This document shows, piece by piece, positions 2,514 through 47,592 of a stretch of 64,000 nucleotides of DNA. This DNA is from Pocillopora verrucosa. Its lineage: Eukaryota > Cnidaria > Anthozoa > Scleractinia > Pocilloporidae. A model generated the notes under the pieces. That model was not told the DNA's origin, did not search any database, and saw nothing but the letters and a program-made list of their open reading frames with translations. The stretch covers positions 9,219,824 to 9,283,823 of the forward strand of contig NC_089322.1 in NCBI RefSeq assembly GCF_036669915.1, read 5' to 3'. Both the position numbers and the translations under genes were made by a program. Position 1 is the first letter of the stretch, and every line of letters begins with the position of its first letter.

Positions 2514-3708
2514 AGATTAACTCGAGTTGCCTTGAGGGGGTGCCGTTATAAATATTATGTGTAAGGTTAGTTGAGGTCATAATCGAAGCACAAAGAAACA
2601 TATGAAATAATGACCGAAAAACTTTGGTGTAAAGTCAAAACTGCGCGTTCATCACACGAGTTTATAAGGTTAGGAATGTTTCGCTTAAATCGCTACCGTG
2701 ACTTTTTTCCCGTCTTAAACTGGTGATTTGTACACGTCGCGTGTCAGAGACAACAGTCCGAATTTCGAACATTTTGTAGCCTGATATTGGGCAAAGGTTT
2801 CTGTTAATTAAGAGAGGCTAAAAGTAGAATTAAAGTATTATTTGGGAAAATTTGAAGTGTTTTTCTTGCGTGCTCTCTTGAAAAAAGATGCGGAAAATTG
2901 CGAATAATCTCTAAGCTTCTATAGGTGCACCTATCGGAGTTCTGGAGTTGGACATGATTTGGGGATATTTCCTTGCCATCCAAATCGCCAAAGCAGAATT
3001 CTGTAGAGTCACGGACGTCAGAGAGGACAACGCAATCTGTTCCGTTGATAGGATTGGGTGATCTTCCGCGTGGATGCCTAACTTTTCCATCTCGATGCAT
3101 GATACATTCGTCTTCTCCATAAAATGCAAAGAGGGCACCAGCCCCTAGAATGCCGGCATAATCTTACCACCAGCGACATGGTCGATATATCCAAATAAGT
3201 GAACCGTTCAACTGGTACAAATCTGACCTTGAGCTGTTCTTGATCAGATTAGTTGCTATGCAGGACTAAGGAGCCTTCCAGATGAACGATTTACCCGACA
3301 ACCGACGGAAAATTGTTGTCCATTTTTCCTCGTTCTTTTGTCTGTCTGTCACGTCAACTGCGTCTTCTACACCGATTAAGATCTAGATGGAGATCATTTC
3401 TTTTACTATCCTGACTTAAACGAGTGATTTAGGGCTGATATTACGAGAAGAGAAGTTAGATAATCGATAATAACTCTTTGGAGTCAAACGAAAGAACATG
3501 CCATAAATGCGTTTGGTGTTTGGCTTTGCTAGGGTTTTTTCTTTCGCAATGGCGACCAAAGCAGTCGCAAACAGAGGTTCTAAGTTGTCTGAATCTTCGT
3601 CGCTGTCCCTTACATAGTTGTCAAACTTTCAACTATGTTAACTCGATCTTTAGTAAGATAATCTTGTCGAGTAGTTATTAAAGATAAAAAAGGAAGTAAA
3701 TAACTTAC

Positions 3709-3831
3709 CAACTGTTTCTTTGCTCGACGCGGGGGAGAGCCATCCTGATGTTCCGTGTGTTCTGACTCCTCAGGCTCTATTGGGTAGCATTCAACAACAG
3801 CAGTGTGCTCTTTCTTCTGCCTCCCCCACAT
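3709..3831 (-). CDS. Possible 41-codon first coding exon of an unrecognised gene
   Basis: Reading on the minus strand, an ATG at 3831 opens 41 codons, acidic then basic in composition (includes ECYPIEPEESEHTEHQDGS and PPRRAKK), ending at a near-consensus donor AGTTG/GTAAGTT at 3709/3708. The composition and good donor make an exon plausible. A further minus-strand open stretch at 2911-3138 could be downstream sequence, but I cannot connect the two. Family not recognised; this could be a chance ORF. Confidence 0.3.
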
Positions 3832-4639
3832 AACGGTTACTTTTTGTCCTGTCTGACAGGAGACGGATCAGCTATGTCCGATCGTGACACTTCAGAATAC
3901 TGACTACAGCTCCACTTTACTTGAACGAGTTTTTTACAACTAAATTGTAAAACGTGATTTTCAACAACCCCTACTTGTCTAAAGGGCTAAACTAACGCCC
4001 CCATATGATAGATTACAATTGAAAATAAGATGACGGGTGACCACTAAACTAAGCTAAGGAACTAAAAGATAATTTGGTTTCATCACCTGAGTTGAAAATG
4101 GAAATTGGCCACCGTAAAGACTTTCTAGGCTGACGTTTCGAGCGTTTGTCCATAATAAATCACAATGGAAAATATGACAGTAGCTGAACTCTAAACTCTA
4201 GAGCAAATCTTATCTTTCAAATCGGCACTCTTAATTTCCACGGCACCAACGGACGCTTTTTAGTCAACTAACTTATTCTTGTTGCCATGTTCCCACCAAA
4301 GGCATTGCTTCATCTTCTGCGTAAAGGTTAAGTAAGTTTATTTTCGTTTATAATTATTCAGACCACACAGACGATAGACCACGAAAACGGTATTACCGTT
4401 TGTATAACATCAGTGTCTTGTGCACAGTTTCGCGCAATATTATGTTATGTTATTCAAACATATTTATGCAGGATTGCTGCTTCAGTTTCAACTGCTATCA
4501 ATGCAGGTCCTGTAAAAAATAAAAAAAATATAAAAATAAAAATAAAAAAAGATTTAAAATATAGATAAAAATCAAATTACAATATTACAAAATAGTTACA
4601 CTAAACGAAAGATCGAACAGTTATAAATTCTAAGAATTA

Positions 4640-5702: not shown

Positions 5703-8700
5703 TCAGACGTACCCTTTTTTCATAAAATAAAATGTCACGTTATCTCCCATCAGCACAAACGGAGCCCATTGGAAAGGTCTGGGGAAGCCATTGCTTCTCA
5801 ACCATTGAACAGCCTGGTGAAGAGATTCACTCGCACTTTCTCCACGAACAAGGTGTGCGTAGAAATGTTTCATGAGCTTTGACGTTGCTTCATCTTCTAC
5901 AGCCCACGATGCTACCAACACTGAACGTGCACCGGATGCTAGAAATGCTCGAGCGATTCCAATAACTCCTTCCTTTTTGACCAATCCACGCCCACTGTGA
6001 CAACAACTAAGTACTACTAGTTTAGCTCGCACTTGAACTCCTTCGATGTCGGACATTGTCAGGAGGTAGTCTTCCTCTTGTGGAGTACTGTTACAAGTAT
6101 ACTGAGGAGAGAGGGCAATCTCTCCTCTTTCGGCATTTCCATGGGCAGCAAGATGTATCAGACTCACTGAAGGTATTGCTTGAAGAACCGCGTGCTTTGT
6201 TGCGCGACTTCCTAACAAAGGCTGAACGCCCAGCAGTTGACCAACCATCTCTGCTTCCTTATTTGCACAGAACAATGGTTTAATGTCAGTGAGACGTCCA
6301 TTATAATGCACTTTGCCAACCGTAGGATCACCGGCAACCAATGCATCAGTTTGACTGTGATAGTCTGCTGGACATTCTTGAATGAGCCGGAGAGTCGTCA
6401 GTGAAGGGACGATGCGTATTCTGTACTTCTCCGATAAATACTTTCCAGCTGGTCCATCACGCAAGGCAGCAAATGGGACTCGGTACGAAAAACGATCCGG
6501 TACAATAATGATTTCGGGCTCTGTAAGTAAATCTGCCACAGGTGCGAAGATCCATTCGTAGCACAAATGATGACTTCTTCCGGTATCTTTGATTTTGTCA
6601 CCTCGCAAATTTACTTGGCTCTCTTCATGAACGTTGTCATCCAGCGATCGGTCTTCGCAGTTCGCTGTGGGTAAAACACCAAAGCAGGCGGCGCTCTTTT
6701 TGAAAATTCCTTCCACTTCGCAAACTTGCTCAGCGATAAGAGTCTCTACTTTCACCTCGTCTGTTTTTCGAAAGCAAATGTCCCCATTTGTTTTCCATAC
6801 CCAGAGAAGAACTTGCCGATCTCTATATGAAATGTACAAAAAAACACAGTTACTTTCTCTTTTCACGACGTTTTCGATGCCGAACCATGATCGTGGATCG
6901 GCTGAAATGTGGCTTTCAGCGGAGTACTTGTCTGCCATAAATTCTGTGAGGACTCTTGCTCGTCCCAGCTCCTCAACATAGAGAGCATCTCGAAATTTTC
7001 CAGTATCGCAAAGCAAATCAGTAAATAATTGATAGGGAAAAGTACCGTGTTCCTCCAACAGAGACATTTGAAATTCACTGTTTCCTTTCAGTAGAGTTCT
7101 GATTTGTTCATATTTTCCAATACAATGAAGAAGATATTCCATTGCCTCAACAGTCTCTGACTGTGATGTCTTTAATATTGTAATACTGAGAAGGCTGTGA
7201 AACTCAGCCATTTTGTGTCCAATATGGCTGCTTATGGAACAAGCTTTCTCTAAATAATCTGCTGCCTTGCCACATTCCCCAAACGATTGGAATAGACGTC
7301 CAAGGTTTAGATAAACATGTGCTTCCAAATATCTATCGCTACATTCTCTGCTGATTGTAAGCGCCTTCTCGAAATGCTCTTTTGCCTTCTGACTGTCATT
7401 GACAGAAGCAAAGACAGCTGCCAAACTTACAGTAGCCAAGACCTCTAGTTTTCTGTCACCAAGTGTAATACTGACGCTGACTGCTTTGTCCAAATGTTCT
7501 TTAGCTGCCCGATTTTTATGAAGCTTAAGGTAAATTTTTCCAATATTTAAGTGTGCGAAACCTTCTCCTCTCCTGTCGCCAAATTTTATTGCGATGGCAA
7601 GCCCTTTCTCTTCATATACTTTAGCCTTCTGATATTCGCCAAGGGACTCAAACACAGCTCCGAGGTTAACGTATGCTGTTCCTTCTTTTTCACTGTCGCC
7701 AATTTCTATCATAATGGCAAGTGCTTTTTCGTGATATTCTTGAGCCTTCTGATATTCGCTAAGGCAATCAAACGAAGCTCCGAGGTTCCCGTAAATTGTT
7801 CCTTCCATGTTTCTGTCACCAATTTCCATCGCTATGGCAAGTGCTTTCTCTTGATATTCTTTAGCCTTCTGATATTCGCCAAGGGAATGAAACACAATTC
7901 CGAGGTGTCCACATGTTGTTCCTTCTCCTTTTCTGTCGCCAATTTCTATCGCGATGGCAAGTGCTTTTTCGTGATGTTCTTTTGCCCTCTGATATTCGCC
8001 GAGGGAACGAAACACATTTCCGAGGTGTCCATATGTTGTTCCTTCTCCTTTTCTGTCGCCAATTTCTATCGCGATGGCAAGTGCTTTCTCTTGATATTCT
8101 TTAGCCCTCTGATATTCGCCAAGGGAATGAATCACAGTTCCAAGGTTCCCGTATGTTGTTCCCTCTCCTTGTCTGTCGCCAGTTTCTATCGCGATGGCAA
8201 ATGCTCTCTCTTGATATTCTTTGGCCTTCTGATATTCGCCCAGGGAATGAAACACAATTCCGAGGTGTCCACATGTTGTTCCTTCTCCTTTTTTGTCGCC
8301 AGTTTCTTTCGCGATGGCAAGTGCTCTCTCGTGATATTCTCTAGCCTTTTGATATTCGCCAAGGGATTCAAACACAGCTCCGAGGTTCCCGCATGTTATT
8401 TCTTCTCCTTTTCTGTCGCCAATTTCTATTTCGATGGCAAGTGCTTGCTCTTGATATTCTCTGGCCTTCTGATATTCGCCAAGGAAATGAAACACAATTC
8501 CGAGATGTCCACATGTTGTTCCTTCTCCTTTTCTGTCGCCAATTTCTATTGCGATGGCAAGTGCTTTCTCTTGATATTCTTTAGCCTTCTGATATTCGCT
8601 AAGAGATTCAAACACGTTTCCGAGGTTCCCGTATATTGTTCCTTCTCTTTGTCTGTCGCCAATTTCTATCGCGATGGCAAGTGCTTTCTCTTGATATTCT

Positions 8701-9844
8701 TTAGCCCTCTGATATTCGCCAAGGGAATGAAACACAATTCCGAGGTTTCCACATGTTGTTCCTTCTCCTTTTCTGTCGCCAATTTCTATCGCGATGGCAA
8801 GTGCTCTCTCGTGATATTCTTTAGCCTTCTGATATTCGCCAAGGGAATGCATCACATTTCCGAGGTTCCCGTACGTTGTTCCTTCTCCTTGTCTATCGCC
8901 AGTTTCTCTCGTGATAGCAAGTGCCTTCTCTTGATATTCTTTAGCCCTCTGATATTCGCCAAGGGAATCAAACACATTTCCGAGGTTCCCGTATGTTGTT
9001 CCTTCTCCTTGTCTGTTGCCAATTTCTATCGCGATAGCAAGTGCTTTCTCTTGATATTCTTTAGCCCTCTGAAATTCGCCAAGGGAATCAAACACATTTC
9101 CGAGGTTCCCGTATCTTGTTCCTTCTTCTTTTCTGTCGCCAATTTCTATCGCAATGGCAAGTGCTTTATCTTGATACTCTTTAGCCCTTTGATATTCGCC
9201 AAGAGAATGAAACAGATTTCCAAGGTTCCTGTTTGTTGTTCCTTCTCCTCTTCTGTTTCTATCGCGACGGCAAGTGCTTTCTCGTGATATTCTTTAGCCT
9301 TCTGATATTCGCCGAGGGAATCAAACACAGCTCCGAGGTTCCCGTATGTTGCAACTTCTCCTTTTCTGTCGCCAATTTCTATCGCGACGGCAAGTGCTTT
9401 CTCTTGATATTCTTTAGCTTTCTGATATTCTCTAAGGCTAGTACATACATTTCCAAGTCTTCCATAAGCCATCGCTTCTTGTCTTTTGTGACCAACCATT
9501 TTCATGATGGTGAGTGCGCCCTTAAAGAGTTGCTTCGCCTCTGTAAACCGGCTTTGTACTTCACATTTGTCTCCCAGTTCTATGATTAATTCCCCAGCAT
9601 GTTGGAACGTTTTAAGAAGTTTGACGGCATGTCTTTCCGCATCTGTGTAACCAGAGATGGCGTAGTATGCATTGAATAGTTCATCGGAGATATTAAGGTG
9701 ACTACCAGAGCCAAGGTTTTGAAGTAGAATCACACATTCATTACATAACTCAGTCGCTTGTAGGCCACGATCAGTGTTCAGAAGAAATATGACGACATTT
9801 AGACCTATTTGGACTGATTTTAGGATTTCTGCAGCCTCACTCAT
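5703..9844 (-). CDS. TPR-CHAT protein (tetratricopeptide repeats plus caspase-like CHAT domain), frameshifted
   Basis: From ATG 9844 the minus strand encodes an N-terminal helical region and then about 19 tetratricopeptide units of 40 residues (consensus GDRKGEGTTYGNLG then VFxSLGEYQxAKEYQEKA). After less regular repeats a C-terminal CHAT domain follows. Numbering from the downstream ATG at 9095, the catalytic His of HLAAHG is residue 985 and the Cys of LSCCHSG is residue 1032, both present; the closing VLVASWAVEDEATS and FQWAPFVLMG blocks are typical. CHAT is a caspase-fold peptidase family often joined to TPRs, and cnidarians carry many such genes; here it is probably intracellular, with the TPRs as a ligand or partner sensor (inference). 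A 7-bp loss near 9256, inside one repeat, shifts the frame between the first 200 residues and the remaining 1,130 plus. Stop at 5703. The gene may be a pseudogene, a start at 9095 may be used, or the assembly may be wrong there. Confidence 0.85.
7300..9530 (-). repeat. 120-bp coding tandem array (TPR units)
   Basis: The TPR-coding DNA is a tandem array with a 120-bp period, visible as the block CCTTCTCCTTTTCTGTCGCC (plus-strand view) recurring at 7921, 8041, 8281, 8521, 8761 and with variants between. Units are so alike at DNA level that unequal exchange or gene conversion is the likely cause. One unit, at 9241-9353, is 113 bp and carries the frameshifting 7-bp deletion. Confidence 0.9.
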
Positions 9845-17040: not shown

Positions 17041-17213
17041 TTATTATTTGATAGACCATTTTCGATGAATGAAAATTTTAACTTAGATATACGATATGTT
17101 ACTAATACTTCCATGCGATCTAAATAACAAAAAGGTACATAATCGTGGCACCCATAGACATGACACCGGATGCACCTACTAAAACTATGTATTGACTAAT
17201 CCCTTTAGGAATA

Positions 17214-18266
17214 ATGGATTACATATCAAATACGCTTAATAATATCGTTTTATTGGGTTCTCCCCTTGGACCGTTGCTGGCTAACGTCTTCATGTGCTCG
17301 ATTGAGGAAAACCTCGAACAACACGGTCAACTTCCGCGCTATTACCGGAGGTACGTCGATGACACCCTGACCGTAATGCCTGATAGGGTGACCGCTGGCC
17401 AGTTTCTAGACACCCTTAACTCTACCCATCCCTCCCTCCAGTTTACCATGGAAGTCGAACGGGAAGGATCCCTTCCCTTTCAAGGAACTGAACTGCTTAA
17501 CCGTGCACCAAAGATTGAGAGCAAGGTCTACATCAAAAGAACCAACACGGGTCTCCTTCTGCATTTCCAGAGTCATGTTGACATTAAGTACAAGCGCAGC
17601 CTAGTTAACACCATGGTGGATCGCGCTTATCGATTATCTTCTAACTGGTCTTTCTTCTCCGAGGAATGTGACCGCCTTAGAGGGGTTTTTCATAACTTGA
17701 AATACCCAAAGCCACTGGTTGAAACTACAATTAAGCGGTTCGTTGAGAGAAGGATTTCATCTGCAGATCCCTGTCCATCACCAGACGTACCATCGGAGAT
17801 TGTGAGATTAGTGTTACCCTTCAAGGACCAGTCGTCAGCTAATCATGTTAAACAACAACTGAACAGTCTAAGCTCGAAGTTAAGCGTGACTGTCCAACCA
17901 GTGTTCGTTAGCCCTAAGCTCGATCAACAGCTTAAGCAACACGAAATTAAGCCCCCTATTGTTAACCAACAATGTATCGTTTATGAATTTAAATGTAACC
18001 TGTGTGATGCAGGGTATGTGGGCTATACTCGTGGTCACTTACACGAGCGCGTAGAAGGGCACACAAGGAAATCATCTTCTATCTACAAACACTACCACCT
18101 CCAGCACAATAGTGAAATGCCTGAACGCTTGATCGAGCAATTCAACGTCATCGCGAAATGTAACGGCAAATTTGATTGCCTTGTTAATGAAATGTTGTAT
18201 ATTCGCATGCGTAAGCCAACACTGAACGTGCAAACGGATTCCATCCGCGCCAAGGTGCTTGTTTAA
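17214..18266 (+). CDS. Penelope-like element: reverse transcriptase C-terminal part plus GIY-YIG endonuclease
   Basis: A 350-residue frame. RT motifs: GSPLGPLLANVF (about 15-26) and the catalytic YVDD at 47-50, then LPFQGTELLNR in the place of the later palm motif. A linker with a CxxxxxxCxxC cluster (Cys254, 261, 264) leads into a GIY-YIG endonuclease: VYEF (257-260), GYVGYT (268-272), His283, catalytic Glu326 in LVNEMLYI. RT followed by GIY-YIG is diagnostic of Penelope-like retroelements, which cut and prime chromosomal targets. The N-terminal RT domains are missing and homology begins abruptly at about 17250, so the copy is 5'-truncated and dead, although the remaining frame is intact and so fairly young. 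Confidence 0.92.
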   Translation: MDYISNTLNNIVLLGSPLGPLLANVFMCSIEENLEQHGQLPRYYRRYVDDTLTVMPDRVTAGQFLDTLNSTHPSLQFTMEVEREGSLPFQGTELLNRAPKIESKVYIKRTNTGLLLHFQSHVDIKYKRSLVNTMVDRAYRLSSNWSFFSEECDRLRGVFHNLKYPKPLVETTIKRFVERRISSADPCPSPDVPSEIVRLVLPFKDQSSANHVKQQLNSLSSKLSVTVQPVFVSPKLDQQLKQHEIKPPIVNQQCIVYEFKCNLCDAGYVGYTRGHLHERVEGHTRKSSSIYKHYHLQHNSEMPERLIEQFNVIAKCNGKFDCLVNEMLYIRMRKPTLNVQTDSIRAKVLV

Positions 18267-37390: not shown

Positions 37391-38508
37391 CCTCGATGGT
37401 AGTTGGAATTTTGAAAGCCATTCAGGAGGAACCTGTAGGTAAATATTTGTTTTCAAAAAAATTAAACTGTCTGATAACATCCTATCAATTCACTAATTTT
37501 TTAATTTACCAGATTTAAAAATTGGGTTTACTTTGTTTTATGCATGGTGCAAGTAAATACATATCTAATATATTTCAAAAAAAATAAAGCAAATCTCGCC
37601 ATTTTTGTAGGTGCAATCCCCGAGATTTGTCATCTTTAACTGACCAACTGGCACCTTGTGTGTTTTCCTTTAGGATATAATCGAAAGAAAGTAATCGATA
37701 ATGTACTCTTCACTATCCTGCTAAGTTTAATATACGAGAACTTACTTAGGCAGTGCTCAGTTCTGTCGCCTCGTCCGTAAAACAGAGATCCCTGGGCGAT
37801 TTACCCTTTTCTTTCGGTGCCAATGTCACCTCTAAATTTTCATAATCGCTGATGTTATCTGAATCATCAATCGAAGTTTGAACCGTCTTACTCGAAGGAC
37901 TTGATTCTGCACGCTGAAAGAGTGAGAGCCAAAAAATCAGCTTAAGTGGATGCAAACAAAGACATAAAAATATCAGTTCATCTTTTCAAGAAAAAGATTA
38001 AGAATTCAGAGTGAGAGATCCTAAAATCAGAGAATCTTGAAATAAGTTAAATCCATCTTGTGCAAATGCAGTATTCGAACAATAACCGTCTCTATCTCTC
38101 GGCGCCAGAATTTGATCACGTGACTTTAGTTGCGAAACCGCTGAGACTCAACAAGACTCGGGAGAAGAGGCGAACCATTCAAATTCTCTGGTGGGAAAAT
38201 TAATTATCGTACCGACGAAGAACTCGTGTCATCTCTAGGTTCAGCGTTCATTGCAATCAATTTCTTGAGCTTTAGACGCTCTTTTATAATAGGGATGTAG
38301 TGCCTTAGTACGTCTGCATCTTGGGCGATGGCAAGGAGATCTTGGCCATCGCAACCGTCTTTTTCTGCAAGATAAGATACGAACAAAGATCAATGGAGCG
38401 GTCAAGTTTGAGAATGTAAAGTTGCAGTAAAATACGTTGTTAAGAAATTTCTTTTGCCTACCTTTCCTTTCTTAAGTCTCATTCCATGCGACTGTAGCCA
38501 AGAAACAG
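37391..38508 (-). pseudogene. SAM-like gene, part downstream of the transposon (rest of exon 1 and exons 2-4)
   Basis: Minus-strand exons: end of exon 1 at 38508-38462 (WLQSHGMRLKKGK), exon 2 at 38364-38213 (CDGQDLLAIAQDADVLRHYI, then IIKERLKLKKL), exon 3 at 37913-37746 (acidic, Ser-rich) and a 42-bp exon 37432-37391 (VPPEWLSKFQLPSR). The pattern WLQ..GMRLKKGK and DLL..YIPIIKERLKL is that of an uncharacterised SAM-like family common in cnidarians and fish (from memory). Exon 1 is cut by the 9.1-kb transposon. A GT donor at 38461 leaves the wrong phase for exon 2, whereas a GC donor four bases later (TAG/GCAAAA) would fit. TAA stands immediately before the exon 3 donor. Both features suggest the gene may be decaying. 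Later exons were not identified. Confidence 0.55.
38501..38508. repeat. Target-site duplication, left copy (AGAAACAG)
   Basis: AGAAACAG at 38501-38508 is repeated exactly at 47585-47592, immediately outside the two terminal inverted repeats of the 9.1-kb element. Confidence 0.95.
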
Positions 38509-38634
38509 GGCTGATCTCCGGTGTAATAGCCACAGCTGACGTCATGAGTCGCTTACCATCGGACTTCGCATAAATATAATACTGATAAAACGGTAATTGT
38601 GTAGTTCTCGGTAGTTCTTTGGTTCTCGTGGTTC
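38509..38634 (+). repeat. Left terminal inverted repeat
   Basis: About 126 bp, matching the complement of 47459-47584 with one clear mismatch (GTAGTTCTTTGG against GTAGTTCTCTGG). It contains a palindromic GCTGACGTCA and runs into the first GGTTCTCGT unit. Confidence 0.92.
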
Positions 38635-38691
38635 TTATACTATCAGACTTCACGTAATATAACTCTCAGTTACGGTGATTGTGTATTTCTG

Positions 38692-38858
38692 GTTCTTGTG
38701 GTTATCGTGGTTCTCTTGGTTCTCTTGGTTCTTCTGGTTCTTCTGGTTCTCTTGGTTCTTCTGGTTCTCGTGGTTCTCGTGGTTCTCGTGGTTCTCATGG
38801 TTCTCGTGGTTCTCGTGGTTCTCTTGGTTCTTCTGGTTCTCTTGGTTCTCGTGGTTCC
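38692..38858 (+). repeat. Subterminal 9-bp minisatellite, left (GGTTCTCGT)n
   Basis: About 18 units of 9 bp, mixing GGTTCTCGT, GGTTCTCTT and GGTTCTTCT. The reverse-complement array is at 47176-47470. Arrays of short units next to the ends usually serve as transposase-binding sites (inference). The 9-bp period keeps every frame open, so the Gly-Ser-Arg ORFs here are not evidence of protein. Confidence 0.92.
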
Positions 38859-39005
38859 ATGTTATTTTCTTCATTTCCGGTTCAAGCGGAAGTAAAAAGC
38901 GAGATTGTGCAGGCTCACATATACTTTCGCCAGTGGTATTTCCCATTAGTCAGAGATCGGCTGTGTGTCGAACGGGTTAATAAAATCGTAGTTTTATCAC
39001 AAGAA

Positions 39006-42000
39006 ATGAAGTGTTTTACCAAAGTTGTGTATCTTTTGGTGGCTTTCAACATCTTGGGCTTCTCCTACGCTTACAACATACCAATTTCGGAAGCAAGTTA
39101 CAGATTTATACAGCTTGTTTTGAGCATTCATTCATCTGAATCGAATGCGAATTTAATATGGTTGCAACATGGTGTGGTTATTAGGGGTGATCAAAGAAGG
39201 CCAACATCCAATAATCCTGAAGATTATGTAGTACATGATATCATACTATGGGATCCATTAAGTGTTTCTTCGAATATTACCTTATGTTGTCCCAATTGCC
39301 TCGAATATTCTGGAATGAATCAGTCTCTTAGAGCTACAAGATGGAAGGACGGGAGAACAAAATGTGATGAACCACGTCGCCTTTACGGTTTAACGAACAA
39401 TGTCTTACTAGTTAGTAGAGTATATGTTTGTGACCGGAAACACCAAATAATTGCCCACGATCCCTATGTTTTGTCACAAGTTAAAGGTATATTGCCTATT
39501 CCATTCGTCTTATTTCACAAGGCCGGAGTGACGAGAGAACTGCACAGCTTTATTATCTCTCATGCAAATGCTGGGTTGACGATTAGTGAAATTCAAACTC
39601 TCTGGCTACAGACAATGTATGATGCCTATGGTTCACGAAGGGAAGCCTATATCTCTGCATGGAACAAAAATTCAAACATTTGTCTTTGTTTTCCCGAGTT
39701 TGACCAAAGATTTCAACAACCAGGTGAGAAGATCATAGCCTCTTGTATAGCCAGGAATTACTTTGAGAAGGAGCATTTATATACAAAGAGAATGTGTCAA
39801 ATGACAGCCAGGAAGTGGCTAAGTTGTGATCATACGTTTAAGGTGTCTGCAAATATTGGATTTTGGTTTAATAAGAGATGGGTGAAGCTGTATGATACAC
39901 TATTTATTGTCCTTAATGAGGAGGGACATGTGTTAAGCTGGAAGCTGTGTAAAGGAACCAAGTTTTCATCTATTGAAAATGTTTTGCAACTCGTAAAAGA
40001 CAGGCTAGATAAACAAGGACAAAAGCCAGCAATTTTTTTTTAGATAATTGCTGTTCATGGCGTGCAAAGCTATTAAAGATATTTCCCAATGTAACTATAA
40101 AATTGGACCCTTTTCATGCAATACAAAGAGTTGTAAAGAAAATCCCTAAAAAGAAAGGTTGCACTGAAACAGTTACACAGCTTCAAAGGAAAATGATACT
40201 CTCTTTAAGGCAACTTTTCCGTGATACAAAGGATAGGGGTGAACAGAGAACAATGGACACCCCCTCACCAGAAGTTATCCTGGAAAATATTGAGATTTTT
40301 ATGAGGCAGTGGAGCAAAGCTGAAATAGATTCCATTCCATTGTTGTCATCTAGTGCAGTAAAAGAGATTAATAACCTGAAACATCATGTCATCAAAGGCT
40401 GTTTGTCTGGAATACCACCATCAGGAGGGACAAATAGAAATGAAGCAATACACAAAAGTTTAAACAAGTCTCTAAAACGGTCCAGGATCGGCCTAGAATT
40501 GGCTCTTGCATTTCTGGGGTTATTCTTTTACAAATGGAATGAAAAGAAAATATCTTGCAAGCTTACCAACAAGAGGAAAAAAGTTACCTATATTCAACCT
40601 GTGGAAACTTACAATATGATGACTGAGGATTCCACAACTGATGAGCAGTTTGGTGGCTCTCTAACTATTCAGGAGAATGCAGAAGCAGCAGACTGTGAGT
40701 TTGGGGAAAACTTGTCAGACATTGATGAAGCTATTGATTGTATTAACTATTTACTAGAAGAACATTCAGATACATCAAGTGATGATGACAATCTCTTATT
40801 GGATGACCAGAATTGTGACATAAGTGATGATGAGGACTGTTTTAATTTTCTCAACAATGCAGAAATTGCCAATGTTATTCAGCAAGCATCAAACTTTAGT
40901 TTTTTAAGTAAACACCTGCAAGATATCAAGGGTGAGGCATCTATTTCACGAAGTGCTAATGATCTGATAAACCTTAAAAATGTTCTTTGTCTCTTATCTA
41001 CTGTTACAAGTAATGCTCAGTATAATGGAACAGATCTTGATGCATTTCTTCTTTTAAACAATTTGCAACGAATCAAAATTCCTGGAGATGGAAATTGTTT
41101 TTTTGTGTCTTTAGCAATTATGATACAGCAGCAGTTGGCAAAAGGCACTTTAAGTGCTGAGGCAAAGGCACATATGGAAAATTTAGGGTTAATGAAAGGT
41201 GCTCACACAGATGTTAAACAAATGGCTATGGCACTACGACAAATCATTGTGAAAGAGTGGTTGGCCAATCCCTCTTCCTATAAGCCTTTCCTCACTTCAG
41301 AACAAGATTATGAAGTAGAAGCAAATGCCTTTTTACAAGATGGCCACTTTGCATCAGAACTTGGAAATTCTATGCCTCTTGCTGCCTCCAATGCATTGCG
41401 CATCTCAGTTGTGGTCTTCACAGCAATGTTAAACTTCCCAGTTTTGCCAATTTGCCCAAGAGATAGGACTCTAAGTGACAATCCAATATATCTTGCTTAT
41501 GAAATGCGTTTTGCTGGCCATTATGATGGCATTGAGCAGCAAAATACTGTACAGCAAGATGAGGAGCAGCAGAGAAGTGTACCTTCTTCTCAGTGTAGTA
41601 ACCAGCATCAAATAACATGCAGGTGTGGACAGGGAGCTAAAAAAAAAAAACAGGAAGCATTTCCTGTCATGAATATAAGAGTGGCTGCAAGTGTTTTCAG
41701 AAAGTGATGGGGTGTAGTGCATACTGTCAGTGTATAAACTGCAATAATCCTAGAGGCAAGAAGGTATCATCAGGCTCTGCATCAATTACATGTTCAGCTC
41801 GAAAGCGGCGACATCATGACAGTTCAACAGAAGGGTTAAGTGGAAAATCATATACGGAATTCAAAGCAGGTGGAACAATGACAGTACACTGGACACTCTT
41901 TGAGGAGCTTGTTTTGATGGAGCTTGTAGTAGCTCTTTTAGCAAGTGACAAGCTTGAAACAGAGGTCCTTTACAAAGAGTATAATCATGTAGTTGACACT

Positions 42001-42141
42001 GTTAGACCGACAGCTATAAAACACTGTTTGGGCAAGAAAACAGAAAGACAAGTGGCTCATAAGCTTTCAAAATTGTTAAGTAGCCAAAAAGTGTTTGCCG
42101 CATTGATAAAGGAACAAATTCGGCTTAATTTGGGGGAGTGA
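39006..42141 (+). CDS. Transposase: DDE catalytic core, OTU domain, CXC domain (two one-base frame breaks)
   Basis: About 1,045 residues across three frames. The N-terminal third has paired cysteines (TLCCPNCLEY). The RNase H-like core has candidate catalytic acids: Asp of CDHTFK (39828), Asp of DNCC (40043) and Glu of GTNRNEAIHK (40442); LDPFHAIQRV follows the second Asp. An acidic linker leads to an OTU cysteine-protease-like domain with PGDGNCFF (Cys codon 41096) and AGHYDGI (His codon 41519). Next come a CXC domain (CRCGQG, SGCKCFQK, YCQCINCNN; 41618-41752) and a helical tail. The frame breaks lie in T9 at 40033-40041 and in A12 at 41639-41650; each is one base short of the continuing frame. 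Start 39006 is chosen because upstream codons lie in the minisatellite. It presumably cuts at the terminal repeats; the roles of OTU and CXC are unknown. Confidence 0.85.
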
Positions 42142-44430
42142 ATGATGCAAGTCTAAAGCCAGTTTTTGTGCAGAATAACCTATAGAGGGTGAAATATCTT
42201 TCCTGTTTTATTAAAAATTAAGTAAGTTGTAACTCTTACCTCACATGGATAAATTTGAATTTTCAAGGATAAACTACTACTGTGGAATAAACATTTACTT
42301 TGTTATCACCTTCAATTAAGTACTGCAACAGACAGCTGAAATTTTTAGCATGCAAGCAAGGGGCTAACAGTCACTCTAAGAGTCAGCTGTTTGTATCTTA
42401 AGGTGGTTATTAGATAATGACCAGTACAACTCTGGACACTAGTTTGATTCAGACGACAATATCTAATGTTTACATGGGACTGGTATGCACATTTGGTCTT
42501 TCCTGGTTTACATAGCCAAAATTAAGGGTTTTGCTTTCTGTAAATCATTTTTAGTAGTGCATAGTTACTAGAACCCTGTTCATGCATACATGTACAAGAA
42601 AGGTCAGCTTGACATCCCCTTAAATTAAGTTCTCGTTACTGTTTTCAATGTCATCAGAAGATGAACACATACCTAATAGTTTTTCTTTGTAGATCAAAAT
42701 TTACCTTGGGCCTCTGACACAACAAACAAACCATTGAGTTACTTATTTTTGTTGACTCTACGTGGACTGTTCATTTTTCATCAGATATGGGGATGGGCCT
42801 GTGAGATTTGGGACTAAATTTTAGGCTTAGTTGGTTCTTATAGTTTAGTAGACTAAAATTTTCATGGTTCAACAAGAATGTTTGTTAAGGAATCTTGCAT
42901 CTTTAAAGTGCAGGAGATAGATATAATTATGGACACCTTGTGTGGTATGATTTTTTTAAGAAGCAAGTGATACTAAATTGCATCCCTTGGTTGTGTGGAC
43001 TAAAAGTGTCTTGCTACCTTACAAGAGTAATGATTTGTGTAATTGGTTATATAGGTAATTTTTAATAAACAAGCACAAAGTAACACAAGCCCACAGGGAT
43101 ATTTTTGAAAATTCTATGAGTGTTTATTTTCTCCAGATTGCACAAGAAAATCACCTGATGATTTGTCAATGATAGGGTGGAACCTCCATTAAGAGGGCAT
43201 CCCCAGGACTATGAAGTGTCCCATAATATACCTGTGTTCCTTGAATAGAGGGTGTGTGGGGTTTTGTTTATAATTAACCACCTAAACAAAAATGCCAGTT
43301 TTATTCCCTTTGAAGCAGCCATCTATTAAAGCAACCAAAAATGCACAACATAAGCTATCGATAGGAACCTTGGACTTTTTTTAAATTGTGATTTGACTTG
43401 CTACCAGTAGATTACTACTGCAATAACCTGTCAATAAGTGCAGAATTAATGTACAGTAAAAATACAAAGTGTGTTCATATTTATTTTGAAAGGCATGCAG
43501 AAACTGGAACAACTCAGTGTCTTTGGTGGCATTGTAATCATTAGCAGCTTAGTAGTTGTCCCCTTAATGGGGGTTGAAAAGCATTTGCAGCACTCAAAGT
43601 GTCCCAATCTCCCTATAGAGGTGCCCTTGTAATAGTGGTGGTAAATACAAAGTTTATCTGAGCATTTTACCAGGACCAGGAAAAGCATCTCCTTGTCAAG
43701 GTGTGCCATGAATAGATGTTCCAAAGTGGAGGTTCCGTAGTACACATGATGCACAATAACATTTTTAAATTCAACTTTCTGTCTCTATTTCAATTTTTGG
43801 CAATCAATTCAAATTTCAGAACTGTTTGGGATTTTTGACATGGTCAAAGTCAATCAGCAGGCATAAATGTTTGTTGTCATAATGTGGTATACATTATAGT
43901 TGTTTATTTTCTTATCAAATTTAAGTATGACAATGCATAATGTATCAATATGTTGCATTTTCCATGCAACAAAAATTTAAATGTAATTGGAATGATTGTC
44001 CTGTTAATGGCATGCAGGCACATTGTGACAGCAATGAATCACTTTTGTATAACATTCTAAAAATTGAATTAAACTTTCATATTTGCTTTTTCCCTTATGA
44101 AATCACTCAATTCAAACATGTCCATAATTTGAATCAAGGGTATTGTTTCATTGTTTGGTTGCATAATGCATAATACATATAGCATTTTAACTGTAACTTA
44201 AGTAAAAACATCTCTATCAATTATGCCTGTTGCAGTTTTAACAAAGATTCAACTTGACAACCAGAACTGGATAAATGGGATTTCAAATGGCCATACCTGC
44301 TAGTAGAATGTGTTGGTAGCAAGAAATAATCTGTAATGAATAACATGTTAAGTGTCAGGTCTCTGCATTGTATTATTCAAGCATATTTTAAAACTGTAAC
44401 ATTTTATAACAAACATTGTTTTTGTTTGGT
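42142..44430. other. Non-coding interior of the 9.1-kb transposon
   Basis: No gene between the convergent transposase and ATPase. Around 43173-43740 GTGGAACCTCCATTAAGAGG and, at the other end, GTGGAGGTTCCGTAGTA suggest a degraded nested inverted-repeat element (low confidence). Confidence 0.4.
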
Positions 44431-44930
44431 ATTCAACTATTTTCTTTTAAATAAATGTCTCTTTACTTTCTTTCTCTAAAATGTCTCTATTTTTAGGTTT
44501 TTATAATTTCTCAGTTTCCATCCAAAGTTAGTTCATAATTTCTTTCAATTAAATGTCTCAATTTACAGGTATTCATAATTTCTCTCAAGTTAATGTGTAG
44601 TTCCAGAAAATATCAATATCCCAAGAATGAAAGGCATCTTCCCTAAAACCCCACCAACCCCCTGGAAATTCCAATTCAGCTTCATACATTGCTTTAAATT
44701 TTTGGGTCTCTAAGACCCCACCCTCCTGTCCAGGAATTTCCAATCCCTTCTGTGGGGGGTAGTACAGATATTTTCTGGACCTACACAACGTCTTTCATAA
44801 TTTCTCTTAAATAAATGTCTATTTAACAGTATTCTCAATTTCCCTTAAATAAATATCTATTGAAAGCTACATATATTCTCAATTTCTCTCAATTAAATTT
44901 CTATTAAAGTTTTCATAATAATTTCATGTA
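44430..44930. repeat. Degenerate tandem repeat interrupted by a MITE
   Basis: Six or more units of about 40-50 bp based on TTCATAATTTCTCTCAA(A)TAAATGTCT, on both sides of the foldback element at 44594-44787. Confidence 0.6.
44594..44787. mobile_element. Small MITE (194 bp) nested in the transposon
   Basis: TGTGTAGTTCCAGAAAATAT at 44594 is the complement, with one mismatch, of ATATTTTCTGGACCTACACA ending at 44787. The core has CCCCACC/GGTGGGG-like pairing and no ORF. It sits inside the tandem array, so it inserted later. Confidence 0.75.
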
Positions 44931-44957
44931 ACAATATTATTTCAACATTCTTTTCAA

Positions 44958-47049
44958 CTAAAGCAATGGTGGCAATGTTGCTCTCTCTCTAAAGGCATTG
45001 AGTTCAGCTTGAAATGGATGACCCTCTGACATTGTGAAGATATTGCTTGCAGTAAGCTTGTCATCATCCTTCAGGAAGGTTGATCTGTAGTCTTGCACAG
45101 AGATGTTATATTTGGCCAGCTTCTGCTGAAGGTTATCATTGGGCAGCATTTTATAAAAAATTTTCAGTTTGTTGATGACTTTAAATATGCCAAGACCAGC
45201 AGCTGCCAGATCTTGCATGGACTTTTGTACCAGACTGACATTTGGACGGCAGTGCGAGGAAAAGCTTGTGTAGATGCGGCGGGCAGTTGTGTATGGCCCT
45301 TTCATTGTTAAGATTCTAAGGGTAACATCCTCATTTGTCACACCCACTTTTATTACCTTAGCAGAGCCATTAAATTTGCTAGCCTATGATAAAGGTAAAT
45401 TTAAAACACTATAAGTAAAAATTATTTTACTTTGAGTTGGATTTTATATTTTCATGGTCTGGTAAATGGCAAATACCTTTTCTTTCTTAATTCATACATG
45501 TAAATGCACAAGGGAACTCAGGGAGGTTTGAAATTGAATTTCTTTTTAAGTCCTGACACCTTGGTAGACTGGGCACACATAAAAATTTCTACAAAAATAA
45601 AGTGATTCTGGTTGAGTTGGGGCATGAATGTTGGCTTCCTTATTCCATGACCAAGAGTTTCATAAATATTAGCACAGGAGAAGTTTTTGTTCTTATTCTT
45701 AAATTGTAAGTACAGTATTGCACTTGTTGTTATTGATATTGTCACAGTTGTAAACCTGGTCCTTTCAAATGCCAAATTGACACCCCAAAAAATGAATGTG
45801 TGATTGTAGAGATGTTGCTTCCCCTCCTTCCCAGAAGACTTTTTTGGGTATGAAAGCTACTGGAAAGAAAACAAAGCTTTATAACCGATAAGAGCAAGCT
45901 AAGAAACTAGTCATACAAGTACACGTGCGATACTTCATTACTCACCGTGTGCGAAATTCCCTTGTAAATCTCGAGGCTTTGGACAAGAGTTATTGCCATG
46001 TTTAGTGTTCCCAAGGAAATTTTGTTACTTGTTACCCCTGTCTCCAAATTTATGGCCTTGCTCAGGCGATCATATAGTACATGCATGCTGAGAGCAAGGC
46101 GGAGTACGTGTTTGTTACGCTTAGAATTGTTGCAGTTGGCTTCCTCTTCCGCGCTGGCCCCTTGTGTGCTTGGCAACTTATCTTGAGGCTTAGCGAATTT
46201 GAAAAAAGCCTCACGGGCACTTGCACTCAGGGAGTACTTCACTGGTGGAACACTGTTATGTTCTACATAAATTTGCTCAAGCACTACATTAAGCGACTGG
46301 ATAGGATAATTATCCAGCTCTTCGCAATGCTGGGCCATTACCTCCAGGTCTTTCTCCTCCTTTTTCTGGTAGAAAAGGAGCATTCGCTCAGCTAGGCCAT
46401 TTTCAGCAGACAACATCTTCGGCCAAACCGTTTCGAGGAACTGCTTTGGGGTAGTGAACGCAAGGAGCGAGACTCGTGCCGACGGGACCCCTGTACGTTT
46501 ACCCTTGTTGCCCTTCAGCACGTACCAGCAATCGCCGTCGTAACACTTGCATAGTCGTTCCATGGTCAGATTCGCTTGAGGACCTTTCGATAAACTCGTA
46601 ATCTTCGTTAGAAATGAGTGGGCCTCGTCGATGCAGATGATAGGGTTGGTATTGCCCGTAGTGAAGTGATTGAACAGGCCATTACTCGACGCGTCATCGA
46701 TAACGATGCTTTTTTCTATTTTGGGCTCGATATGTTCCACGATAGGATCTATGCATCCTAAATGGCACGCAGGTGTCTTCCCAGAACCTGAAGGGGAGAC
46801 CACAACAACGAAAAGATTCCCCCCTTCTTCGTACGTGGAGAAGACCTGTACTGAGCTCTTTCCAATCAGCGCGCTAGTTGAGGTCAATGCACTCAACAGA
46901 AGCATCTCCCGCGTTGTTCCATGGCTACGTGCGAGCACATTTAGCCAGTCTTTCACTGCTGCTGGAACAATCTCTTCGAATGGCAGGGATACATCCGCCA
47001 ATTTAGCTTCTAAATCGTAAATAGTGCGAAGCTCGCTCTCGCCATCCAT
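44958..47049 (-). CDS. P-loop ATPase of the DUF3987 type, carried by the transposon (two exons, about 509 aa)
   Basis: Exon 1 is 47049-45946 (368 codons, donor ACG/GTGAGT) and exon 2 is 45383-44958 (141 codons plus stop, acceptor CATAG/GCT); phase 0 joins cleanly. Walker A SPSGSGKT (85-92), Walker B PIICIDEAH (136-144) and a conserved ENGLAERMLL (216-225) with a likely arginine finger agree with DUF3987, a primase/helicase-associated ATPase family best known from phage and bacterial mobile elements. The C-terminal exon has a winged-helix-like segment (VTLRILTMKGPYTTARRIY). The intron shows it is a eukaryotic gene. Convergent with the transposase and inside its terminal repeats, so it is element cargo or a second mobility protein, possibly an ATP-dependent regulator of transposition (inference). 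The frame is intact. Confidence 0.85.
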
Positions 47050-47175
47050 AATTGTCGAAGGAAGAGGTCAACAGGAGGTCAAGAAAGCGCGGGAAAATGA
47101 TTAAAATGTTTACAGCCACTGACCATACTGCTGGCTCAGACATCCAAAGGCTAAGAACTTGGGGGGTGGGGGGGG

Positions 47176-47470
47176 GGGAGAACCACGAGAACCAAGAAAA
47201 CCAAGAGAACCAAGAGAACCAAGAGAACCAAGAGAACCAAGAGAACCACGAGAACCACGAGAACCAGAAGAACCAAGAGAACCAGAAGAACCAAGAGAAC
47301 CACGAGAACCACGAGAACCACGAGAACCACGAGAACCACGAGAACCAGAAGAACCACGAGAACCAGAAGAACCAAGAGAACCACGAGAACCACGAGAACC
47401 ACGAGAACCAGAAGAGCCACGAGAACCAAGAGAACCACGAGAACCAAGAAAACTAAGGGAACCACGAGAA
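47176..47470 (-). repeat. Subterminal 9-bp minisatellite, right (GAGAACCAC)n
   Basis: About 32 units of 9 bp, the reverse complement of the left array. GAGAACCAC, GAGAACCAA and GAAGAACCA variants alternate. Longer than the left array, so unit number changes independently at each end. A G-rich run at 47160-47179 precedes it. Confidence 0.92.
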
Positions 47471-47584
47471 CCAGAGAACTACCGAGAACTACACAATTAC
47501 CGTTTTATCAGTATTATATTTATGCGAAGTCCGATGGTAAGCGACTCATGACGTCAGCTGTGGCTATTACACCGGAGATCAGCC
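47459..47584 (-). repeat. Right terminal inverted repeat
   Basis: Complement of 38509-38634, ending CACCGGAGATCAGCC at 47584, directly followed by the target duplication. Confidence 0.92.
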
Positions 47585-47592
47585 AGAAACAG
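47585..47592. repeat. Target-site duplication, right copy (AGAAACAG)
   Basis: Exact copy of 38501-38508, flush with the end of the right inverted repeat. Confidence 0.95.

Follow-up and report, generated by a model that had tools for sequence, protein, structure and literature searches.

Does a cut-and-paste DNA transposon of an animal carry an ATPase of its own as a working partner of its transposase? The question is raised by a 9,076-bp element in the coral Pocillopora verrucosa, which lies at positions 38509-47584 of a 64,000-nucleotide stretch of contig NC_089322.1 (positions 9,219,824 to 9,283,823; the whole stretch is called the window below) and carries two convergent genes, one for a DDE transposase and one for a P-loop ATPase. 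ATPase-regulated transposition is known in the bacterial elements Tn7, Mu and IS21, where both the choice of target and the activation of the transposase depend on the ATPase. In the open-access literature as listed, the transposase-ATPase partnership is known from bacteria and was not found described for eukaryotic cut-and-paste elements: the matches for DUF3987 (the ATPase family in question) together with transposons are bacterial or phage by title, none of them eukaryotic, and no match describes this pair in a eukaryotic DNA transposon, Repbase lying outside the scope. Judged from sequence comparison, the element is on balance probably a new two-gene variant of the IS256/Mutator-like cut-and-paste elements, with the ATPase as a dedicated cofactor.

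Results

The element has the ends of a DNA transposon. It is flanked by the 8-bp target-site duplication (TSD) AGAAACAG, which is read directly in the sequence at 38501-38508 and 47585-47592. The left terminal inverted repeat (TIR), of 126 nt, begins GGCTGATCTCCGGTGTA (38509-38634, plus strand), and the right one (47459-47584, minus strand) is 99% complementary to it over the same length. Subterminal arrays of a 9-bp unit, TGGTTCTCG, are present in 18.7 copies on the left (38690-38857, plus strand) and, mirroring these, in 34.7 copies on the right (47178-47489, minus strand). With up to 3 mismatches allowed, the 23-nt terminus occurs at two places in the window, the element ends, and at none in 100 shuffles. 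An earlier reading made without database searches (the sequence-only reading) had proposed a DNA transposon with such a duplication, repeats and mirrored arrays and with only two genes, and each of these points was borne out. The restriction to two genes holds because protein-level conservation with a second family (tblastx; see below) in the space of about 2.8 kb between the genes is limited to a single stretch of 9 residues.

The whole source genome (G000, 353 Mb in 52 contigs) was searched for further copies, and the copy numbers found are lower bounds. Two copies of the same family as the window element (family 1), L048 and L049, match nearly its full length with 96.6-98.4% identity in long pieces and carry both genes, and the three lie at separate sites with perfect 8-bp duplications that differ from one another (AGAAACAG, ATGTTTTG and CATCTTTC). 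Five more family-1 copies (L050-L054) have internal deletions; the TSD of L054 (ACAACTTC) is perfect and that of L050 matches at 7 of 8 positions, and L051-L053, with one left flank common to all three, look like a single insertion duplicated along with its surroundings. In L063, which represents family 2, both genes are uninterrupted: a transposase of 1,034 aa is followed by an ATPase of two exons, arranged as in family 1, and pieces of the family-1 transposase are 36-49% identical to this family in protein searches. All seven loci located by the family-2 terminus carry both genes or pieces of each (the one at C13:17.0 Mb retains no more of the transposase than residues 1-101), and the arrays of this family have 8/16-bp periods, not 9. 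Family 3 (L066) again has the same gene order, with transposase pieces 36-38% identical to family 2, ends GGCTATGTCCTGGTGTA, a perfect TSD ACCCAAGG, inverted repeats of about 180-300 bp and arrays with 9/18/27-bp periods; both of its genes are also found at C6:12.58 Mb and C8:11.52 Mb. The termini are alike across the three families (GGCTGATCTCCGGTGTA, GGCTTATCCTCGGTGTA and GGCTATGTCCTGGTGTA, two family-2 copies having GGGTTATCC... at the end next to the ATPase), and position and phase of the ATPase intron are equal in all three. Several loci at which similar ends enclose the two genes, the kind of support that the sequence-only reading had hoped for, are present in three families of one genome. 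That reading had also named two observations that would speak against it, a consistent lack of the ATPase in other copies and a single-copy host ATPase gene elsewhere with the same flanks; the ATPase is instead multi-copy and lies inside the ends at several copies.

Counted over the genome, 20 of the 25 ATPase places have a transposase place within 12 kb (18 convergent, 2 divergent), compared with a chance expectation of 0.0024 per ATPase place or about 0.06 for 25, although the 20 pairs represent no more than a few families in several copies each and are therefore not independent. The count used 31 of 48 ATPase rows (the other 17 being extra pieces of the same places) and one further row, together with 43 of 48 transposase rows (5 extra pieces dropped) and 7 of the 18 rows of another search; an earlier count through Pfam matches gave 16 of 18. 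Among the five unpaired ATPase places, those at C6:8.02 Mb (L055) and C13:13.64 Mb are fragments with a known end, and the remaining ones are C2:8.94 Mb, C4:19.17 Mb and a weak match on C7.

Two side observations concern the ends. A CRE-like palindrome, TGACGTCA, a possible promoter or binding site, lies about 30 bp from the terminus at both ends in families 1 and 2 (38537-38544 and its right-end mirror in the window; L063:403-410 and its mirror) and was not found in the family-3 ends. On C11, the opposite-facing family-2 copies L063 (about 9.953-9.962 Mb) and L069, L070 (10.109-10.117 Mb) have swapped flanking duplications (CAAATTTC, AAATGGAT), as if the intervening 150 kb had been inverted by recombination or misassembled.

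The transposase gene (39006-42141, plus strand; first ATG likely at 39006) is homologous to the uninterrupted 1034-aa open reading frame (ORF) of family 2 and is itself interrupted. It consists of three overlapping open frames (38679-40043, 40013-41707 and 41641-42141) with frame shifts at homopolymers, a T run near 40035 and an A run near 41640; the A-run shift is common to L048, which has a stop elsewhere in addition, and L049 has two stops. The three DDE acids proposed by the sequence-only reading were recovered by alignment as conserved acids, with the first catalytic D codon at 39828-39830 (DHTFKV; D272 in family-2 numbering), the second at 40043-40045 (DNCC; D344), a DxFH pattern downstream of it, and the catalytic E codon at 40442-40444 (TNRNE; E476), in a register that matches the IS256 E region, all on the plus strand. 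Spacings are alike in families 2, 3 and 4, at 71-72 and 125-131 residues.

Downstream of this core, an OTU-like protease module (41048-41548, plus strand) with its Cys codon at 41096-41098 (GDGNC) and its His codon at 41519-41521 (GHYD) was placed by reading the motifs and by alignment to a relative, L068. The window transposase has no Pfam OTU match of its own; L068 is the sole member above the cut-off (5.7e-5, 24.1 bits versus 23.3), and the family-1 stretch from GDGNC to GHYD aligns to its OTU domain. Families 1 and 2 give weak otubain matches under the cut-off, with motifs GDGNC...GHYD or PNGNC...GHYD. The catalytic Cys is lost in family 3 (L066) and in another relative, L067, so that part of the lineage would lack the protease activity. 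The next module (41618-41759, plus strand) is cysteine-rich and CXC-like, with matches below the cut-off to Pfam TCR in the window (0.007) and to MSL2-CXC in the family-2 homologue (1.5e-5, 25.5 bits versus 26.7). Both modules had been predicted from the letters alone, and the predictions agree with these matches and, for the OTU-like module, with the aligned Cys and His motifs. A PDB sequence search with the transposase gave the MSL2 CXC at 0.095, a search with a three-row transposase profile gave OTUD3 (0.022), a chain labelled as RNA-dependent RNA polymerase (0.78) and MSL2 (1.5), and an NCBIfam search gave no match.

Three further features of the transposase were seen. Families 1, 2 and 4 have a hydrophobic N-terminus that resembles a signal peptide (window 39006-39080; L063:734-810; L064:4360-4438, minus strand), with best 15-residue hydropathies of 1.9, 2.3 and 2.8, respectively, and a further family-2 stretch of 2.1. 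This is odd for a nuclear enzyme, and family 3, read from the chosen ATG, does not have it. The left 9-bp array (38679-38857) is an open frame that encodes, in phase with the transposase, GSRGSLGSS repeats resembling collagen (Pfam Collagen 1.8e-8), probably as a by-product of the 9-bp unit length. The relative L067 (C2:1533500-1538100), with long open frames in two likely exons (134-2464 and 2833-4470), is altered at both catalytic D positions, at the E (replaced by D) and at the cysteine of the OTU module, with the zinc-knuckle and CXC parts intact, and from its sequence it looks like a domesticated host gene.

To place the enzyme, a core profile of six rows was compared by hhalign with profiles made from named plasmid transposases. 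The IS256 profile (8 sequences) aligned over 157 columns with 19% identity (E 2.6e-4, probability 42%), and D344, the DxxH / [C/D]xxH motif and E476 were in register. The single-sequence controls were 13 other transposases and 107 unselected plasmid ORFs; an IS256 protein scored E 9.8e-4, and the best of the 107 ORFs was a second IS256 copy (E 6.1e-5), which shares 91% identity with that protein. Two members of the lineage matched Pfam DDE_Tnp_ISL3 (4e-4 in L068 and 0.028; 20.7 and 14.6 bits versus a cut-off of 23), and ISL3 as the parent family, which these matches and a profile comparison (E 6e-4) had suggested at first, was dropped after IS256 proteins had outscored all 9 ISL3 proteins in the controls. 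As the ISL3 and IS256 profiles are themselves related (E 7e-11), the claim is held to the IS256/ISL3 group with IS256 slightly better, and the core appears to be remotely of the IS256 group. Eukaryotic Mutator belongs to the same group; the element was not filed as Mutator, as the IS256 probability is only 42%. The sequence-only reading had known of no described superfamily with this pair, and this stands for the pair in the open-access literature, whereas the remote alignment with bacterial IS256 gives the enzyme core some distant kin.

The 16 Pfam families matched by 12 transposase rows at E<=1 include neither MULE nor Transposase_mut (the names under which Mutator-like transposases would appear), nor KDZ, hAT, P-element or integrase families. 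It is somewhat unlikely that the enzyme belongs to a catalogued, unpublished Repbase group (a Mutator, Zisupton or hAT entry), which would be compatible with every other reading of the pair: 8-bp TSDs come also from some Mutator-like elements (PMC6446971) and from Zisupton and hAT (PMC12730594), but none of the families KDZ, hAT, MULE and P-element is among the 16. KDZ/Zisupton, with an equal TSD length, was rejected as parent on the unmatched KDZ profile.

The ATPase gene is read from the opposite end, towards the transposase gene. On the minus strand, exon 1 (45946-47049, 368 aa) carries the DUF3987 domain with Walker A PSGSGKT and Walker B IICIDEA, and is followed by a predicted GT-AG intron of phase 0 (45384-45945) and by exon 2 (44958-45383, 141 aa), which has no Pfam match and is conserved between families. 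The protein matches DUF3987 (PF13148) at 8e-25 with 88.2 bits versus a cut-off of 27, so that the membership in this family claimed earlier is well founded. Walker A and B are kept in families 1-3, and the first-exon frame of 386 codons is open in the window, L048 and L049. In PHROG, the window ATPase matched three phage DNA primase / DNA helicase families (2e-13, 4e-11 and 3e-10) and the family-2 ATPase scored 3e-7 to 1e-5. Pfam gave no TnsC/TniB, IstB or MuB match for either protein, the window ATPase matching only DUF3987, DEAD (0.066) and AAA (0.09) at E<=0.1 and the family-2 ATPase DUF3987 alone at E<=10; a PDB sequence search gave an antibody chain at 0.97 only. Close relatives of the ATPase were absent from the phage, plasmid, viral-contig and prokaryote collections: viral contigs, genome contigs and phages (both proteins) and plasmids (ATPase alone) yielded just three phage records at E 0.7-0.9, and these collections, not being eukaryotic, say little on other animals. 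Given the primase and helicase matches, the missing TnsC/TniB, IstB and MuB matches and the lack of close relatives, we regard the ATPase as a diverged phage-replication-type motor, which judging by its sequence has probably been resident in the lineage for long. L074 (C4:19168300-19169300), a DUF3987 frame of 283 aa on a contig without a transposase match, may be a stray or domesticated ATPase.

DUF3987 is a phage and prophage replication-type family, and this, together with the PHROG matches and the lack of TnsC/TniB, IstB or MuB matches for the window and family-2 ATPases, speaks for an alternative in which the ATPase has no part in strand transfer but assists replication or repair, unwinding or copying the element as a helicase/primase relative (copy-out, gap repair) and raising its copy number, with target choice left untouched. 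We consider this unlikely, as no primase or polymerase gene was seen in the element, few copies were found (as lower bounds), and the TSDs and ends are typical of ordinary cut-and-paste insertion.

Both genes were under purifying selection while the families diverged. Between families 1 and 2, the proportions of differing silent (pS) and other (pN) sites were 0.82 and 0.37 for ATPase exon 1, 0.81 and 0.45 for exon 2, 0.77 and 0.39 for the N part of the transposase and 0.75 and 0.43 for its C part, so silent sites are saturated and other sites are not. Among the three near-full family-1 copies, the ATPase exon 1 gave an omega of 0.12-0.21, with 13-17 changes in each pair and a one-sided Fisher p of 0.0002-0.004, and constraint on the transposase was not significant (p 0.07-0.26 for three pairs in the N part and 0.82 for one pair in the C part). 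That the ATPase is the more constrained of the two speaks mildly for a function that goes further than the strict pair. The ATPase could be an accessory for life in the host, acting against silencing like vanC of the plant element Hiun or against competition, selected but dispensable for the chemistry, and extra ORFs occur in several Mutator-like elements, one of them anti-silencing (PMC6446971). Some transposase relatives without the ATPase point the same way; nevertheless, the kept Walker A and B motifs and the order and intron conserved across diverged families indicate more than a late passenger, and we hold such a role to be rather improbable. It is very improbable that the ends trapped by chance an ATPase gene of host or viral origin, unrelated to the element, which then spread along with them. 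Gene capture by transposons occurs, and the phage, plasmid, viral and prokaryote collections hold no close ATPase relative, but the pair is older than the divergence of families with transposase identities of 36-49%, and both genes are under purifying selection.

Elsewhere in the window, an open frame of 1,196 codons at 5706-9293 (minus strand) has TPR-like repeats (typed by eye from the first 70 residues), and a 356-codon frame with YVDD at 17196-18263 (plus strand) is likely a reverse transcriptase fragment, also judged by eye.

Discussion

If the element is a two-gene variant of the IS256/Mutator-like kind, the functional unit would be the pair, in an autonomous-type cut-and-paste DNA transposon lineage. 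Gene 1 would be a large DDE transposase, remotely of the IS256/Mutator kind, with a zinc-knuckle-like N-terminal region, the OTU-like module and the CXC-like module, the last probably DNA-binding. The enzyme would bind the long inverted repeats, with the subterminal arrays as probable further binding sites, and then cut, join and insert with an 8-bp stagger, a course suggested by the ends, the 8-bp duplications and the conserved acids. The product of gene 2, a P-loop ATPase with the DUF3987 domain and of the phage primase/helicase type, may serve as an ATP-driven DNA-remodelling subunit that aids target capture, or strand transfer and later repair. The OTU module would most likely act at the break, where it would free either the transposase or repair factors of the host from ubiquitin.

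Several observations weigh against this. The transposase frame is broken in all three near-full family-1 copies (window, L048 and L049), and among family-1 copies the ATPase is constrained but the transposase not significantly so, which is unexpected for a strict pair. In family 4 (on C3) the two genes are divergent, Walker B is abnormal and no ends were found within the stretches examined. Three of the 20 pairs (C11:12.26, 12.32 and 12.37 Mb) lie on one common flank, a further sign of their dependence on each other. An ATPase is present within 12 kb of 20 of the 36 transposase-like places and absent from the other 16, 5 of which match the OTU part alone; the two ATPase-less relatives whose core was read have altered catalytic acids, all three in L067 and the first in L068. 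Regarding kinship, the hhalign probability for IS256 is as given above and the first D falls outside the alignment, and the ISL3 profile (9 sequences) is close behind (E 6e-4, 46 columns). The control profiles of IS3, IS5, IS30 and Tn3 scored E 0.18-0.48 but were built from 2-3 sequences each, compared with 8-9 for IS256 and ISL3, and an unrelated plasmid ORF, second among the 107, reached E 0.0081, near the best of the 9 ISL3 proteins (0.0056).

A bolder form of the cofactor reading is possible, and we put it forward tentatively. The pair would be an obligate two-part machine of a DDE enzyme and a helicase-type DUF3987 motor, an independent functional counterpart of Tn7, Mu and IS21 derived from a phage replication helicase, with a deubiquitinase module acting on the host break response. 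The parallel with Tn7 and Mu is one of function only and a guess. If the pair works like Tn7, Mu or IS21, this division of labour would have originated independently in eukaryotes with a different motor, giving a new system with built-in regulation, and the pair also points to a role of eukaryotic DUF3987 proteins that lends itself to testing. Should the ATPase instead act in replication or against silencing, the long co-inheritance of the pair would still make it a clear case of a conserved accessory gene in a DNA transposon.

The features common to this element and the Mutator-like elements (MuDR, Hiun/VANDAL, Mutyl, Spectre) are long TIRs, a TSD range that includes 8 bp, a DDE transposase and a second ORF. 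MuDR has two genes that are convergent. Mutator-like elements are described with TSDs of 8-11 bp, long TIRs, a second ORF in several (mudrB, vanB/C, mutB) and minisatellites in some groups (PMC6446971). Here, 8-bp TSDs are perfect in the window, L048, L049, L054 and L066 (7 of 8 in L050), and TIRs are 126 bp long in family 1 and about 180-300 bp in family 3. The element differs in having no MULE Pfam match, no SWIM or FAR1 seen, OTU-like and CXC-like modules and a DUF3987 ATPase as the second gene; "OTU" and "ATPase" have 0 occurrences in the main text of PMC6446971. The core is remotely like that of IS256 in the second D, the [C/D]xxH motif and the E. IS256 itself has a single gene and a TSD of about 8-9 bp, and it is not known to carry an ATPase or a protease or CXC module. 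In ISL3, the 8-bp TSD and the GG... ends are like those found here; the sub-cut-off DDE_Tnp_ISL3 matches and a profile match of 46 columns stand beside a slightly better IS256 match over more of the core.

Among animal elements, the transposase of RAG-like transposons is of another kind. Their partner gene, RAG2L, is not known to encode an ATPase, and their TSD is 5 bp. They are alike in having two convergent genes, transposase and partner, in animals (PMC7204232). Zisupton has an 8-bp TSD, and fungal KDZ elements carry accessory genes (TET/JBP) inside their ends (PMC12730594), but their second gene is another one and KDZ matched none of the 12 transposase rows. Ginger1, an animal DNA transposon with many members from Hydra, has a C-terminal OTU or Ulp1 protease and TIRs of about 40-270 bp, and OTU domains are found also in Helitrons; Ginger1 differs in an integrase-type core, a 4-bp CCGG/CCGT TSD and no ATPase mentioned in the excerpt (PMC2836005). 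It was rejected as a relative on the 8-bp TSDs, which are not of the 4-bp CCGG type, and the unmatched integrase families, with the OTU module alone in common. The coral CMITEs are unrelated, being piggyBac-like with TTAA (PMC2872659). Bacterial elements with a dedicated AAA+ ATPase are IS21 (IstA/IstB), Tn7 (TnsB/TnsC) and Mu (MuA/MuB) (PMC11208146); their ATPases belong to other families than DUF3987, and the analogy with the coral element lies in the joining of a transposase and a dedicated ATPase in one element.

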